Below the pieces are notes generated by a model, which ran no database searches, was not told the origin of the DNA, and saw only the letters and a list, made by a program, of their open reading frames with translations. Source: Halanaerobium salsuginis (GTDB taxonomy: Bacteria > Bacillota > Halanaerobiia > Halanaerobiales > Halanaerobiaceae). Taken from it: 64,000 nucleotides of DNA. The DNA is taken from the NCBI RefSeq assembly GCF_900114545.1, contig NZ_FOTI01000003.1:1-64000 (forward strand). The letters run 5' to 3'. The position numbers and the translations under genes were made by a program. Of this stretch, positions 56,580 to 63,404 are shown piece by piece. Numbering within the stretch: the first letter of the stretch is position 1; every line of letters begins with the position of its first letter.

Positions 56580-56614
56580 TAGTAATGTTTATTTGATTTG
56601 AGGAGGTGAAGGCC

Positions 56615-57889
56615 ATTAATGCTTTTGTAATCATAGCAATGGTAGTTTTTTTGAGTGGCTTAATCGCTTTTATTGGTGATCGAATTGGACTTAAAATGGG
56701 AAAAAAGCGTGTTTCTTTATTTGGTCTTCGGCCCCGCTATTCTTCTATTATTATTACAATTATAACTGGTATTTTAATTGCTGTTATTTCGATCACTATT
56801 TTATTAGGGATTTATTCTGAACTCAGGCATGCTCTTTTCAATATTAATGATGTTCTTTCTCGACTGGAAAGTTTAAACCAGCAGTTAGCAGAGCGTGATC
56901 AAGAACTTACTGCCAGGAATAAAGAACTGGCTGCTAAAGATGATCAGCTTACTAAATTGCAAAATGAAATTGATAGTAAAGAACAGGTTATTGAAGAAAA
57001 AGAAAATGAATTGGCTGCCCGGGAAAAAGAGATAGCAAAAAGAGACCAGGAAATAGCTGCAGTTGAAGCAGAATTAAAGAATCTTTCTGCAAATCGTAAA
57101 GAACTTCAGGCTAGAATTACTGAACTTAACAGCCAGAGAGATGATTTAGAAAAACAAATTACAGATCTTAAGAGTCAGACAGCTGATTTAAACGAGCAGA
57201 TTGCTAATCTGGAATCTGACTATGACAGGCTGCGAGAAGTTGCTAATCAGCTGCAGGCAGGTGTTATTTATTATATGGGTGAAGATATGGTTTATCAGAA
57301 AGGTGATATTGTTTATACTGATGTTCTAACAGGAGGGCGTAGTGAACAGTCAACTATTTCTGCTTTAAATAAATATCTGCAGGCAGCAAATGAAGTTGCC
57401 AAGCAGAATGAAATTGAAGTTAATCAGGAGACCGGGATGGCTTTGCGTCTGCAGACAGAAGATATTTTGAATGCGGCTCGCATTATTTATAATATGGATC
57501 CAGGTAGTCGGGTAATAGTTTCTTTAGTGGCCAGAGTCAATGTGCCCAAAAATGACTGGCTTTATGCCAATTTTCAGCTGCACGAAGATTTTATAGTTTT
57601 TGAAAAAGATTCTCTAATTGGCAGTAAGCAGATAGTGGCAGGTCAGAGCAGTTCTGAAATCGAAAATAGCCTGCGATCTCTGCTACAGGAAATAAATGAA
57701 AAAGCTATTAATCAGGGATTATTACCTGATAACTCAGGTCAGGTAGGTAGTATTAACTTTAGTGAGTTTTATGATATTCTCAATCAAGTTAAAGCAGCAG
57801 AAAAAAAAGTTACTGTTAAAGTTTATGCTAAAACTGCTATCTGGCGGGAAGATCGCTTAACTGATAATATTAACTTTAAATTAGAATAA
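56615..57889 (+). CDS. DUF3084 membrane-anchored coiled-coil protein, probable ATT start
   Basis: Two N-terminal membrane helices flank the conserved DRIGLKMGKKRVSLFGLRPR of DUF3084. A long coiled coil follows (about 90-200, heptads such as RDQELTARNKELAAKDDQL), then a C-terminal mixed domain. The length is about 424 residues. GTG 56606 shares its first base with the AGGAGG ribosome site (56601-56606). The codon 8 nt downstream is ATT (56615), directly before the hydrophobic INAFVIIAMVVFL, so ATT is the likely start. Function is unknown; its partner is the next gene. Confidence 0.8.
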   Translation: MNAFVIIAMVVFLSGLIAFIGDRIGLKMGKKRVSLFGLRPRYSSIIITIITGILIAVISITILLGIYSELRHALFNINDVLSRLESLNQQLAERDQELTARNKELAAKDDQLTKLQNEIDSKEQVIEEKENELAAREKEIAKRDQEIAAVEAELKNLSANRKELQARITELNSQRDDLEKQITDLKSQTADLNEQIANLESDYDRLREVANQLQAGVIYYMGEDMVYQKGDIVYTDVLTGGRSEQSTISALNKYLQAANEVAKQNEIEVNQETGMALRLQTEDILNAARIIYNMDPGSRVIVSLVARVNVPKNDWLYANFQLHEDFIVFEKDSLIGSKQIVAGQSSSEIENSLRSLLQEINEKAINQGLLPDNSGQVGSINFSEFYDILNQVKAAEKKVTVKVYAKTAIWREDRLTDNINFKLE

Positions 57890-57923: not shown

Positions 57924-58361
57924 ATGGATCAGGTTTTATTAGCATTTGATCCTGGCAGTCATAAAATAGGAGCAGCAGTTGTGGATTTCAATGCTCAACT
58001 GCAGGAAAAGACAATTCTCAGCCAATCAGAATTAACTGCTTACTTAGCTGAATTAGCTAAGCATTATCAAATTGTAAAAATAATAATTGGTAATGGAACT
58101 ACCGCTCTCGAGTTACTTGCAATGTTAAATAATGAACTGCCTGAACAGGAAATAGAGCTGGTAGAAGAAAGCTATACTACAGAAGCTGCTCAGGCTCGAT
58201 ATTTAGCTGAAAAGCCAATGTCAAATTACGAAAAATTACTCCGGAAATTTATCAGCTGGAAGGTAAAAAAACCACTTGATGATTATGCAGCTTTAATTAT
58301 TGCAGAAAAATATCTAAAAAAGCTTGACAAAGAGCCAGCTGACAAGTACAATAGTGAATGA
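57924..58361 (+). CDS. RuvC/YqgF-like RNase H-fold protein
   Basis: The product is 145 residues. Motifs in order are LLAFDPGSHKIGAAVVD (first aspartate), IIIGNGTT, VEESYTTEAAQARY (glutamate) and PLDDYAALIIAEKYL (aspartates). These match the acidic residues of YqgF/RuvC-like nucleases, although the protein is not the standard YqgF. It lies 34 nt after the DUF3084 gene, a pairing also known from cyanobacteria. The nucleic acid substrate is unknown. Confidence 0.75.
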   Translation: MDQVLLAFDPGSHKIGAAVVDFNAQLQEKTILSQSELTAYLAELAKHYQIVKIIIGNGTTALELLAMLNNELPEQEIELVEESYTTEAAQARYLAEKPMSNYEKLLRKFISWKVKKPLDDYAALIIAEKYLKKLDKEPADKYNSE

Positions 58362-58416
58362 GGATACAAAAATTAAAATTGAATTAAAAAATTGGATTTT
58401 GAAAATTGAATACTTC

Positions 58417-58443
58417 AAGCAAATTGTAAGCTTTTTTTTGCTT
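58417..58443 (+). terminator. Weak hairpin with internal T-run
   Basis: AAGCAAA (58417-58423) pairs with TTTGCTT (58437-58443) around a loop ending in eight T's. It may terminate the envelope operon, but the stem is weak. Confidence 0.35.
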
Positions 58444-58462
58444 AATTAATGTTTTAAATAAC

Positions 58463-58670
58463 GCTTATCAACTCGACGCTAAAATGTAGCTGGAAGGAGG
58501 TGCCCCCCGAACGCTGCGTAGTGGGAGAGTTATAAGAGTTCTAATGCTTATCAGAAGCAAAGGATAGCTGAAGAGGAAACAAGGAAACTCGCTCGGATGT
58601 CCTCTGTGTTTAGATAGGTCGCTTAGGACTTATAGATAGTAAACACAAACAATCAAGGGGGATTTTATTA
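58463..58670 (+). ncRNA. Candidate structured 5' leader of the SLH porin gene
   Basis: The 309-nt gap before the SLH porin gene contains a block richer in G+C than the spacers around it. Stems are TGCTT/AAGCA (58545-58559), AGAGGA/TCCTCT (58572-58577 with 58600-58605), and directly adjoining it GTGTTTA/TAAACAC (58606-58612 with 58640-58646), which encloses ATAGGTC/GACTTAT (58614-58620 with 58627-58633). Two copies of GCTTATCA (58463, 58546), each followed by TAGCTG (58487, 58565), suggest a repeated module. GGGGG lies at 58657-58661. It resembles no riboswitch class I know. Confidence 0.55.
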
Positions 58671-60626
58671 ATGAAGAAACTTACAATTACAATTGCTTTA
58701 TTACTCGTTGTAGCATTTGCTATGCCAGTATTTGGTGCTTCTTTCTCAGATGTACCTTCTGATCACTGGGCATATAGTGCTATTAACAAACTTGTTGCTG
58801 CTGGTATCGTTGAAGGATATCCAGATGGTGAATTTAAAGGCCAACAATCAATGACTCGTTACGAAATGGCTGTAATGGTTAGCCGTGCTTTAGACAACAT
58901 TGCAGACGAACAAAAAGAAATGGCTGCTGGTTTAACAACTGGTCAGGCAGAAGACGTAACAGCTATTGTTAAAGCCTTAATGGAAAAAAACACAAGTGAA
59001 GAATTTACAGATGCACAAGCTAAAAAAGTTGCTGACATCGTAGATGCTTTAACTTTTGAATTAAAAGCTGAACTTAAAGTATTAGGTGCTAAAGTTGATA
59101 CTTTAGGTAAAGATGTTGACGAAATCAAAGCTACTATAGCTGCTTTAGACGTACCAGAAGATAATATCGAATTCTCTGGTGTAGTTACAACTTATGCTCA
59201 AGTTGGTAGCTATGGTGATGATGATGAGCAAGCTGCAACTGCTGAAGCATTAGCTGATGGCGATGTTTTAGATGCTGACTTATCAAACAATGGTGGTGGA
59301 GATTATGATGATTTCCCTGCTGAACAAGCATTTTATCAAGAAATTGATTTACTGTTAAACGGAAGTTTAAAAGGAATCAATTTTGACTTAGCAGTAGATA
59401 CTATTACTAATGGTTTTACTGACTATGAAGGTTATAACTATGATGATTACACTAAGGTTTTAGGTGAACAGGGTGATGAAAACGGTATCGATATGGATAC
59501 AGCACTTTTAACTATTACTCAAGATAACTGGACTGTAAAAATTGGTGATATGGGTGACTATGATGTAGATGATAGCGCTTATTTCTATGATGTAGAAGAT
59601 GCTGAAGGTATTGAATTCACTGGTCCTGTTTACGGATTTGGTGTTAAAGCTTTTGCTGTTGGTTATGATGATGGTAACTTAGATGAGTTTGCTACTAGTG
59701 ATGACTTATACTATGGTGTTGCAGTTAGTAAAGAATTCATGAATAATACTGTAGTAACTGGTAAAGTCTATCAGGCTGATTTAGACTCTGCTGACGAAAA
59801 GGTTACTGATATTGCAGTTGCAGTTAGTACAGACTTAACTGATTCTTTAACTTTAAGTGGAGAAGCAGTTTATAATGAGCTAGATGAAGCTGATACAGAT
59901 GACAGTATGTTTAAAATAGCTGCTAACTACATTTATACTGATACTCTGAGCTTCAGAGGTAGTTTCCAGACTGTTGGTGATGAGTTTAATGGTGGTGTAG
60001 ACCATTTTGCTGATGTTCAAGCAGATATGGAAGAAGATTATGATTTTGATAAATATACTTTAGGAACTACTTATGTAGTTAATACTAATAATAGTCTTGA
60101 CTTTGATGTAGCTATGGTTAGCTATGATGCTGATACTGCATTTAGTCAAGATTTTGTAGATGATTTAGGTTACAGCAGTGATACTGATGAAGACAAATAT
60201 ATTTATAGTATTGGTTGGAACAATACCTATGGTAAATTTACTAACCATGTTGGTTTAGAATATGTTGAAAATGACTATTATACAGATGAAACTGATGACA
60301 ATACTACAGTAATTGAGTTAGGTACAGTTTATGACTGGACAGCAAAAACTGACTTAAGAGCTAAGATTGTTAACAAAAATGCTGATCTCTATGATAATTC
60401 AGATGTTTGGGATAAAGATATGAACTTCACTTATCTCCAAGCAGGAATTGATCATCAATTAGCTGATAACATTAGCTGGATTACAGATGTACAATACATC
60501 ACTGGTGATGTTGATCAATTGACTAATCATTCAGCTGATGATAGTGTTGATAGCTATGTTGCTAATGGTGACAATGCTGATATCAATGGTAACTTTATTA
60601 CAACTCAGTTATCAGTTAGCTTCTAA
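58671..60626 (+). CDS. SLH-domain outer-membrane porin (OmpM-like)
   Basis: A signal peptide (1-22, ending PVFGAS) is followed by one SLH domain (about 24-70: FSDVPSDHWAYSAINKLVAAGIVEGYPDG in the usual pattern, then MTRYEMAVMVSRAL). A coiled coil (about 75-155) and a large, very acidic beta barrel (about 165-651) ending in VSF come next. This is the OmpM layout, in which the SLH domain binds peptidoglycan and tethers the outer membrane. Codon use looks optimised for high expression. It has its own leader and terminator. Confidence 0.9.
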   Translation: MKKLTITIALLLVVAFAMPVFGASFSDVPSDHWAYSAINKLVAAGIVEGYPDGEFKGQQSMTRYEMAVMVSRALDNIADEQKEMAAGLTTGQAEDVTAIVKALMEKNTSEEFTDAQAKKVADIVDALTFELKAELKVLGAKVDTLGKDVDEIKATIAALDVPEDNIEFSGVVTTYAQVGSYGDDDEQAATAEALADGDVLDADLSNNGGGDYDDFPAEQAFYQEIDLLLNGSLKGINFDLAVDTITNGFTDYEGYNYDDYTKVLGEQGDENGIDMDTALLTITQDNWTVKIGDMGDYDVDDSAYFYDVEDAEGIEFTGPVYGFGVKAFAVGYDDGNLDEFATSDDLYYGVAVSKEFMNNTVVTGKVYQADLDSADEKVTDIAVAVSTDLTDSLTLSGEAVYNELDEADTDDSMFKIAANYIYTDTLSFRGSFQTVGDEFNGGVDHFADVQADMEEDYDFDKYTLGTTYVVNTNNSLDFDVAMVSYDADTAFSQDFVDDLGYSSDTDEDKYIYSIGWNNTYGKFTNHVGLEYVENDYYTDETDDNTTVIELGTVYDWTAKTDLRAKIVNKNADLYDNSDVWDKDMNFTYLQAGIDHQLADNISWITDVQYITGDVDQLTNHSADDSVDSYVANGDNADINGNFITTQLSVSF

Positions 60627-60742: not shown

Positions 60743-61441
60743 TTGAAGAAAAAAATATTAGTTTTGTTGGTGATGGTTGGGGTTATTCTGGCAGCAACCG
60801 CAAGTGCTGCTGCTTCTGATTGGGAAGTGACAGGTGGTTTTTCAATTATTAATGTAACTTTAGATAAGTGGAATTCTACTATTGATGATCTAAATAGTTT
60901 AGTTGATGGTAATTTTAATGGCCTAATCCCAACTACAAATGTAGATGAAATGGATAATATTGAGAAAGTTCCCATGCTTTCTTTAGGAGCAGAAAAGGCA
61001 TTATCTGATAAATGGTCTGCCAGAATTGAATACGAGTATATTTTTGGAGCTGTAGAGACAGAATTTGAATCTTTTAATGGTGCATCTTATGTAGATAATG
61101 AAGGTGAAATTAAAGTTGATCTGCATGGGATTGCCTTTTTAACTGATTATAGCTTAAATGACAACTGGTCATTGGGTGGTGGAGTAGGTTTTTATAAAGG
61201 AACTAAAAGTAAAAAATTAACTGGTCCTGCTTTTACAGCAGTTGGTTTAGCTGCTGATGAAGATTATGATCTGGATGCAGTTAGCTACAGATTTGGAGTT
61301 AATTATCAAAAAGAAATTTCTACTAACTGGGATTTTAATGCTGGCTTAGATTATCTCTATATGGAACTTGATGATGAAGATGAAGGTAATGTTTACAGTA
61401 AAGGCTTGATTTATAACTTAGCTGTAAGCTATAACTTTTAG
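60743..61441 (+). CDS. Small outer-membrane beta-barrel protein
   Basis: The product is 232 residues. The signal peptide (1-24, ending ATASAAAS) is followed by a beta barrel of about eight to ten strands and a C-terminal aromatic strand (YNLAVSYNF), the signal recognised by BamA. The strands alternate as in OmpW/OmpA-like barrels, for example SLGGGVGFYKGTKS. The exact family is unclear. The start is TTG after AGGAGG. It stands alone between two terminators. Confidence 0.75.
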   Translation: MKKKILVLLVMVGVILAATASAAASDWEVTGGFSIINVTLDKWNSTIDDLNSLVDGNFNGLIPTTNVDEMDNIEKVPMLSLGAEKALSDKWSARIEYEYIFGAVETEFESFNGASYVDNEGEIKVDLHGIAFLTDYSLNDNWSLGGGVGFYKGTKSKKLTGPAFTAVGLAADEDYDLDAVSYRFGVNYQKEISTNWDFNAGLDYLYMELDDEDEGNVYSKGLIYNLAVSYNF

Positions 61442-62435: not shown

Positions 62436-63404
62436 TTGCAGAAATTTATTGTGTTACTTTTAACTTTAATTTTACTTTTAACAGGTGGAATCAATGTTTT
62501 TGCTGCTGAGCAGGAACAGGCAGCAGAAAAACTTACCGATCAAACCACAGCTGAACTTGACCTGTCTCAAAGTAAAGTTTTTTCTGAAGCAGCCCGGCAG
62601 CAGTTATTAGGTATTGCTTCCCAATATGATAATGAAGATGTTTTTGCTGAACAAAATACTGAGGTAGAAATCGGCAGTAAAGATTTTACTATTATTGAAA
62701 ATCAAATTAAAGATAAACAAAATTTAAATTTATTGACTGACTTAAATTTTAATGCAGATTATTCTAAATCAGTTATTGATAATAAGCTGCAGAGTGAGGC
62801 AGATTTAAAACTTGAATATTCTTTAAACCCGCGTACCTTAATTAGAGCTGGTTATTCAGTTATTAATGAGGAAGGTTGGGATGTACAACGTAATAATTCA
62901 GCTGGCAGCCTGGCTTCAGCTGGTGATAAAACTTATTTTGATGATCTTGAAAGCAGTAAAAGTGTTGGTCTGGCTTATAAAAGTACCGATCGAGTTACTG
63001 TTTCGGCAGATTTTATTGAGAATAATGAGTTTGGTAGTTATTATAATGAAAATCTTGATGTTTACGGTAATTCAACTGTATTTGGTCTTCAATATGATGA
63101 TCCAGGCGGATCTTCAATTAGAGCTAGATATCAGGTTGACCTGGGAGATGATGTGACTCAGAGAATCGCCGGGGTTGATTTTGCTTTTAATAATCTAGCT
63201 ACTTTTAGTGCTTCTTATAAATTACTCGATCCGAAAGCAGTAGAATCTGTTTTAGCAGAAGAAAAAACTGCCTGGGATTTAGGCTTGGGAGTTAATCTTA
63301 ATGATCAATATGGGGTTTCACTTGGTTACGAATTAATTCAAAGTAAAGATCAGTCAGAAGAGCCCGAGAAAAAAATTAAAGCTTCTTTTGAAATAAATTT
63401 CTAA
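62436..63404 (+). CDS. Secreted protein with probable outer-membrane barrel
   Basis: I do not recognise the family. The product is 322 residues. A signal peptide (1-23, ending INVFAAEQ) is followed by an acidic helical stretch, then alternating beta strands (from about 95) such as LKLEYSLNPRTLIRAGYSVI and VDFAFNNLATFSASYKLL. It ends in SFEINF, a C-terminal phenylalanine as in BamA substrates. The start is TTG after AAAGGAGG. The next gene follows after 18 nt, so they form a unit. Confidence 0.7.
   Translation: MQKFIVLLLTLILLLTGGINVFAAEQEQAAEKLTDQTTAELDLSQSKVFSEAARQQLLGIASQYDNEDVFAEQNTEVEIGSKDFTIIENQIKDKQNLNLLTDLNFNADYSKSVIDNKLQSEADLKLEYSLNPRTLIRAGYSVINEEGWDVQRNNSAGSLASAGDKTYFDDLESSKSVGLAYKSTDRVTVSADFIENNEFGSYYNENLDVYGNSTVFGLQYDDPGGSSIRARYQVDLGDDVTQRIAGVDFAFNNLATFSASYKLLDPKAVESVLAEEKTAWDLGLGVNLNDQYGVSLGYELIQSKDQSEEPEKKIKASFEINF

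Follow-up and report, generated by a model that had tools for sequence, protein, structure and literature searches.

The stretch of DNA analysed here (the window, 64 kb) comes from contig C32 of a Halanaerobiia-like draft genome (G000). It contains a cluster of outer-membrane genes, with BamA/Omp85 (identified by search), LptC, LptA and TamB (identified with Pfam) and lpx-like and lptB/F-like genes that were judged by eye. Near the end of the window lies the gene of an OmpM-type porin of 651 aa (58671–60626, forward strand), matched by Pfam SLH (PF00395, E = 1.1e-14) and, weakly and in the SLH region, by the model of the cyanobacterial porin SomB (NF033921). The block 58463–58670 is the 5′ leader of this gene. 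A predicted sigma-70 promoter (58324–58352, forward strand), with TTGACA and TACAAT separated by 17 nt (11/12), would give a transcript start near 58359 and a leader of ~310 nt; the pattern was found once against 1.1 expected by chance and is weak on its own. In the relatives L006 and L008–L013 the sequence TTGAC[AT]-18-TATAAT precedes the leader, at a distance of ~275 nt from the start of the porin gene.

The two genes directly before the leader encode a DUF3084 protein (56606–57889) and a short RuvX-like protein (57924–58361), an order that is kept before ompM in many Halanaerobiia and in some Negativicutes loci. The RuvX-like protein matches Pfam RuvX with E = 3e-10 and falls far under the NCBIfam RuvX cut-off. 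It has a nucleic-acid enzyme fold and is a possible candidate for a nucleic-acid-binding partner. Elsewhere in the cluster, a SpoIVB-type protein with an S55 peptidase domain (PF05580; 37758–39734) adjoins TamB. Two more predicted beta-barrel outer-membrane proteins are encoded downstream of ompM (60743–61441 and 62436–63404), and for neither of them was a hairpin match reported in the covariance-model search described below.

Covariation and anatomy of the leader

The block is G+C-rich (0.44, versus 0.19 in 58362–58462 and 0.34 in the whole window), as a first-pass annotation made from the letters had stated. Folded as a single sequence it is only moderately better than its shuffled versions (z = -1.82; 8 of 200 shuffles were as good), so that the case for a structured RNA rests on comparison. 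The leaders compared are all located upstream of SLH porins, and were collected in most cases through homology of the porin protein and in the rest through similarity of the leader DNA. A second blastn match in the window's own genome (C55, L002) corresponded to AT-rich DNA before a phosphoglycerate-kinase-like gene and was discarded as chance. All 34 distinct leaders contain GGAAACNNGGNNAC (0.01 expected), and their common hairpin has a loop of 12 nt that follows GAAACNNGGNNA.

Alignment A2, with 32 leaders, revealed two domains, whose elements are given here with their forward-strand positions in the window. Domain 1 is closed by stem P1, in which CUUAUCAACUC (58464–58474) pairs with GAGUUAUAAG (58527–58536); in the covariation count 8 of its 11 pairs were changed on both sides, with ~81% of the cells paired. 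Stem P2 joins GUAGC (58486–58490) to GCUGC (58513–58517) and is weak, as 4 of 4 counted pairs were changed on both sides but just 50% of the cells were paired. The domain exposes AGAAAGGAGGUG or near variants and then a run of C, represented in the window by GGAAGGAGGUG in the apical loop (58492–58502) and CCCCCC (58503–58508). Domain 2 is closed by stem P3, formed by GUUCUAA (58538–58544) and UUAGGAC (58623–58629), with 88% of the cells paired and 4 of 6 pairs changed on both sides. It ends in the apical hairpin (58573–58590), seen in 34 of 34 leaders, where GAG and CUC enclose the 12-nt loop GAAACAAGGAAA (58576–58587). The covariance model of this hairpin (R1) matched 58565–58598 with E = 2.3e-7, the window sequence itself being among the R1 inputs.

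Over the whole leader (32 sequences, structure written from one member), 79% of the cells were paired and 23 of the 34 pairs were changed on both sides, against 14.2 ± 2.0 in shuffles and 7–18 when the structure was slid along the alignment. For the hairpin, 75 distinct sequences from several classes gave a stem covariation of 0.341 against 0.146 ± 0.015 in shuffles, with 6 of 8 pairs and 105 cells (44.6 ± 5.9 in shuffles) changed on both sides and 82% of the cells paired, a value that dropped to 48% or less on sliding. The innermost stem pairs of the sequences derived from the pattern scan were fixed by the search pattern, and the signal therefore comes from the outer pairs; kinship among the sequences inflates these shuffle results, and the permutation results given below, somewhat.

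A conserved structured RNA is thus placed where the first-pass annotation had put one, with both sequence conservation and pair covariation in the related SLH-porin leaders, but most of the anatomy drawn at that time is wrong. The strings on which it was built are present: AGAGGA (58572) with TCCTCT (58600), GTGTTTA (58606) with TAAACAC (58640), and two copies of a module made of GCTTATCA (58463 and 58546) and TAGCTG (58487 and 58565). However, the GTGTTTA/TAAACAC stem is not kept in alignment A2 even inside the genus. The AGAGGA/TCCTCT stem is invariant in the genus, and therefore uninformative; it is not seen beyond the genus, and its formation is in competition with that of the conserved GAG/CTC stem (58573–58575 with 58588–58590). 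The module is not conserved as a repeat, its CTTAT strings being parts of two different helices.

The element had also been put forward as new. In the older taxonomy the Clostridia included the Halanaerobiales. The SLH motif (Stav et al. 2019, BMC Microbiol 19:66, PMC6429828) is a riboswitch candidate known from 80 examples in Synergistaceae, Clostridia and Negativicutes, ~60% of them before SLH genes, and has no known ligand. The leader shares with it the position upstream of SLH-protein genes and the presence in Negativicutes, and is probably the same or an overlapping element. The novelty of the whole element is not supported, and its loop recurs in Yfr2/Cyano-1 (RF01701). Unlike the SLH motif as described, the leader extends to Limnochordia-like MAGs and Cyanobacteriota, is linked to Yfr2, and has a 16S-like tract and an SD pairing. 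What appears to be new comprises the definition of the loop and its identity with that of Yfr2, the SD pairing, the 16S-like tract, the correlation with the outer membrane and the Cyanobacteriota cases. Synergistota gave no match in the pattern scan, but the pattern fixed the stem as TGAG/CTCA.

The earlier classification of the SLH motif as a riboswitch candidate, with c-di-GMP as the suggested signal (PMC6429828), raises the reading of the leader as a sensor of a metabolite or second messenger. A complex conserved leader beside cell-envelope genes would suit this role, and SD sequestration is a usual riboswitch output. We nevertheless regard it as improbable: the most widely conserved part is a single hairpin, its loop 12 nt long, and no multi-helix pocket, the same loop stands alone in Yfr2, and at the gathering threshold no Rfam family, riboswitches included, matched the whole window or ten related loci. 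Among the functions proposed at that stage, translational control through a protein or the ribosome and mRNA stability fit the data better, and the metabolite riboswitch fits them less.

Two Shine-Dalgarno sequences in the porin leader

The purine tract of domain 1 (the 'super-SD', 58492–58502) is complementary to 16S rRNA. Its longest exact match to AGAAAGGAGGUGAUCC, the complement of the assumed 16S rRNA 3′ tail (a tail that gave no match when searched in the window's own draft genome), has a median length of 11 nt in 34 leaders (about 11–12 nt), compared with 4 nt at the porin's own SD and 6 nt at the other genes of the window. A leader peptide starting after this tract was considered and rejected for lack of a conserved start codon, since a possible codon in register was seen in only 4 of 62 leaders, one of them ATG.

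Immediately 3′ of the tract lies a segment that pairs with the sequence around the porin SD, and this pairing is one of the helices that covary in the 32-leader alignment. In the window, CCCCCC (58503–58508) faces GGGGG (58657–58661, forward strand), placed 9 nt before the AUG, with a duplex energy of -12.0 kcal/mol (RNAduplex). Across 62 leaders the mean energy of the anti-SD:SD duplex was -12.3 kcal/mol, versus -10.7 ± 0.22 kcal/mol with permuted partners (0/20,000). After dereplication (n = 25) the permutation z was -5.6, and the reversed anti-SD segment gave no excess of complementary runs in the same dereplicated set; loci that had not been used before (n = 12) gave z = -4.4. The two sides compensate each other, as CCCCC/GGGGG is replaced by CCUUGAUUG/CAAUCAAGG or CGUUCCCC/GGGGAACG, by AACACUUC/GGAGUGUU in paralogs from the genus to which the window belongs, and by CCUUAGGUU/AACCUAAGG in a Negativicutes MAG whose tandem paralog carries CCUUAGGA/UCCUAAGG.

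A second group of ompM paralogs in the window's genus (L037, L040, L041 and L266) has hairpin stems of the AAG/CUU type. Their SD is GGAGUG or GAGUGU and the matching anti-SD CACUUC or ACACUC, which makes them natural compensatory variants.

We give roughly even chances to a reading, drawn from sequence comparison, in which the 5′ leader of this OmpM-type porin mRNA combines translational control gated by the 30S subunit with a hairpin that docks a trans-acting factor. Domain 1 would offer a second SD, much stronger and without a start codon, followed by the segment that pairs with the porin SD ~150 nt away. In the resting state this anti-SD:SD pairing would hide the true ribosome site. A 30S subunit docked at the upstream tract would cover the pairing segment with its footprint, freeing the true SD, and would hand ribosomes on to the porin start codon, so that porin output would follow ribosome supply; the docked subunit may also shield the mRNA from 5′ decay. 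The hairpin of domain 2, which is the part of widest spread, would most likely dock a trans-acting factor, probably an RNA-binding protein, that the genes of outer-membrane proteins within a genome would share, as would Yfr2. Repression and activation predict the same pairing, which is thus compatible with control in either direction.

The STAB-SD of cry3A is a 16S-complementary sequence in a 5′ UTR that starts no translation (PMC4113751). The tract is likewise a complement of the 16S 3′ end in a 5′ UTR and has no start codon; unlike the STAB-SD, it occupies the loop of a conserved stem and is linked to the segment whose pairing partner is the true SD. A leader devoted to mRNA stability would use the tract as a STAB-SD, at which a bound 30S blocks the 5′ exonuclease RNase J1, and the hairpin for protection or processing, translation not being switched, and message stability would be an advantage for a protein of very high abundance. 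This explanation accounts neither for the covariation of the segment adjoining the tract with the distant true SD nor for the invariant loop in leaders devoid of the tract, and we consider it unlikely, though by no means negligible; a STAB-SD role could also coexist with the switch.

Ribosome standby sites and SD-sequestering leaders are known in which an upstream 30S landing site accompanies a hidden SD. The porin leader resembles them in both features, and we know of no example among them with an anti-SD adjacent to the tract or with conservation across classes. If the 30S-gated reading is correct, a landing site complementary to 16S rRNA and coupled to an adjoining anti-SD would constitute an unusual translational switch. 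Many leaders, mainly from Negativicutes, have the hairpin without the 16S-like tract (17 listed alongside the 62 leaders of the pairing analysis, 35 of 53 in a further set), and the two modules are therefore separable and may do different jobs.

Distribution of the hairpin and the outer membrane

A scan of 84,980 species genomes with the pattern TGAGGAAACNAGGNNACTCA returned 104 stretches, where ~30 were estimated by chance. The matches listed (80 of the 104) are concentrated among Halanaerobiales, Negativicutes and uncultured Bacillota; where a signal-peptide gene follows, it mostly starts 60–150 nt downstream. The Prochlorococcus matches correspond to one homologous stretch in about two dozen genomes, which was judged to be coding from its uniform sequence and was rejected. 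Of the 179 distinct hairpins in all fetched loci, 119 stand before genes of SLH proteins; another 30 are followed by other proteins with a signal-peptide-like start, mostly porin-like by eye. The distance from hairpin to start has a median of 86 nt and is mostly 60–130 nt, and the non-SLH downstream proteins include one clear Porin_4 match and another below the cut-off.

With R1 at E <= 0.1, 99 of 120 Negativicutes genomes were matched, often several times, where ~12 chance matches are expected. In the window's phylum 54 of 299 genomes were matched at E <= 0.01, namely 50 of the 76 with Omp85 and 4 of the 223 without it (Fisher p = 1.2e-32, kinship ignored); these last four have E values of 0.002–0.008, and chance alone would give about as many. 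The occurrence of the element thus follows that of the outer membrane, and before porin genes it is found almost only in Firmicutes that bear one. A proposal for Terrabacteria sees in OmpM their ancestral porin and outer-membrane tether (PMC10628300), and a conserved leader that marks its mRNA across diderm Firmicutes would, if the proposed control is real, be a handle on how the supply of outer-membrane proteins is controlled outside Proteobacteria.

Hairpin copies also occur side by side or in number within one genome. One locus (L071, G038:C11) has three tandem non-SLH porin genes, each with its own copy (positions 241, 1747 and 3378), and a Phascolarctobacterium genome (G353; L084, L113, L128, L131 and L144) has 8 hairpin matches, those inspected being placed before OmpM-type genes.

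Genomes with several hairpins, which mostly precede genes of outer-membrane proteins, suggest a common trans-acting factor. CsrA/RsmA is a candidate because the loop contains ACAAGGA, which resembles the CsrA consensus, and because csrA is present in 20 of 27 host genomes. The second GGA is not conserved (GGNNA), though, and csrA was not found in the other 7 genomes, among them the Phascolarctobacterium genome with its 8 matches and also one Prochlorococcus, whose pattern match lies in probable coding sequence. CsrA was rejected as a universal partner on the strength of these 7 genomes, and a CsrA/RsmA site is a barely credible identity for the hairpin.

The Yfr2 loop and the porin hairpin

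A relaxed cmscan placed Cyano-1 (RF01701), taken here as the Yfr2 family after Axmann et al., at 58548–58607 with 26.1 bits and E = 0.027, under the gathering threshold of 41; no Cyano-1 match above the cut-off was seen in the 299 genomes of the window's phylum. In 21 cyanobacterial genomes with Cyano-1 matches, the loops inspected follow GAAACNNGGNNA, variable positions included, their closing pairs being G-C or C-G and their stems varying. Porin leaders and Yfr2 therefore have in common the 12-nt loop, in which eight invariant and four variable positions agree in register, and a link to porin regulation through Yfr1, since cyanobacterial porin mRNAs are Yfr1 targets and Yfr1 in turn is bound by the 5′ motif of Yfr2 (PMC6778093, PMC6974561). 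They differ in that Yfr2 is a separate trans-acting sRNA and the leaders are cis elements under the Rfam threshold, and in that the GUGUGAGGAG segment found 5′ of the hairpin in Yfr2 is missing from the window leader. No established role for the Yfr2 loop was found. The porin leaders give this loop of a near-universal cyanobacterial sRNA a testable role.

The connection between Yfr1, Yfr2 and porins (PMC6974561, PMC6778093) could be taken to mean that a small RNA base-pairs with the loop. Four of the loop positions vary freely, even among the paralogs of one genome, which is not what a conserved pairing site would look like, and it is the 5′ motif of Yfr2, not the loop, that binds Yfr1; such a target is very improbable.

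The R1 search of Cyanobacteriota listed 19 matches, about the number expected by chance, and those with porin context alone were used. Two genomes without a Cyano-1 match (G378 and G392; loci L219 and L220) have the hairpin 110 nt upstream of a gene whose product combines a signal peptide with an SLH domain. Taken by themselves the R1 scores of the two are weak (E ~0.1), and it is the porin-like gene context that makes these hairpins credible. The hairpin was absent from the OprB-type porin loci of photosynthetic Cyanobacteria (0 of 30). The presence of a cis hairpin in genomes without Cyano-1, as opposed to Cyano-1 together with hairpin-free OprB genes, suggests a shift from cis to trans.

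The identity of the loops may instead be a matter of convergence or chance between RNAs unrelated in function, a possibility that we take seriously without favouring it. The Rfam score is below threshold (26 bits versus 41) and the gene context differs in photosynthetic Cyanobacteria; against this stand the agreement in register of all twelve loop positions, invariant and variable, and the two Cyanobacteriota genomes with the hairpin before an SLH-domain porin-like gene. If the two RNAs have a common origin, the hairpin could have been, since the ancestor of Cyanobacteriota and Bacillota, the site of an RNA-binding factor governing the OmpM porin and tether, kept in cis in diderm Firmicutes and some Cyanobacteriota, freed as the trans-acting Yfr2 in photosynthetic Cyanobacteria and joined to the 30S-gated SD switch in many Firmicutes. 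We offer this history tentatively and hold it to be somewhat doubtful.

A further Cyano-1 match (L064/L069, G083:C18:23058) was discarded as a false positive. It is placed before a serine-acetyltransferase-like gene, overlaps a terminator stem and presumably corresponds to a T-box antiterminator or leader.
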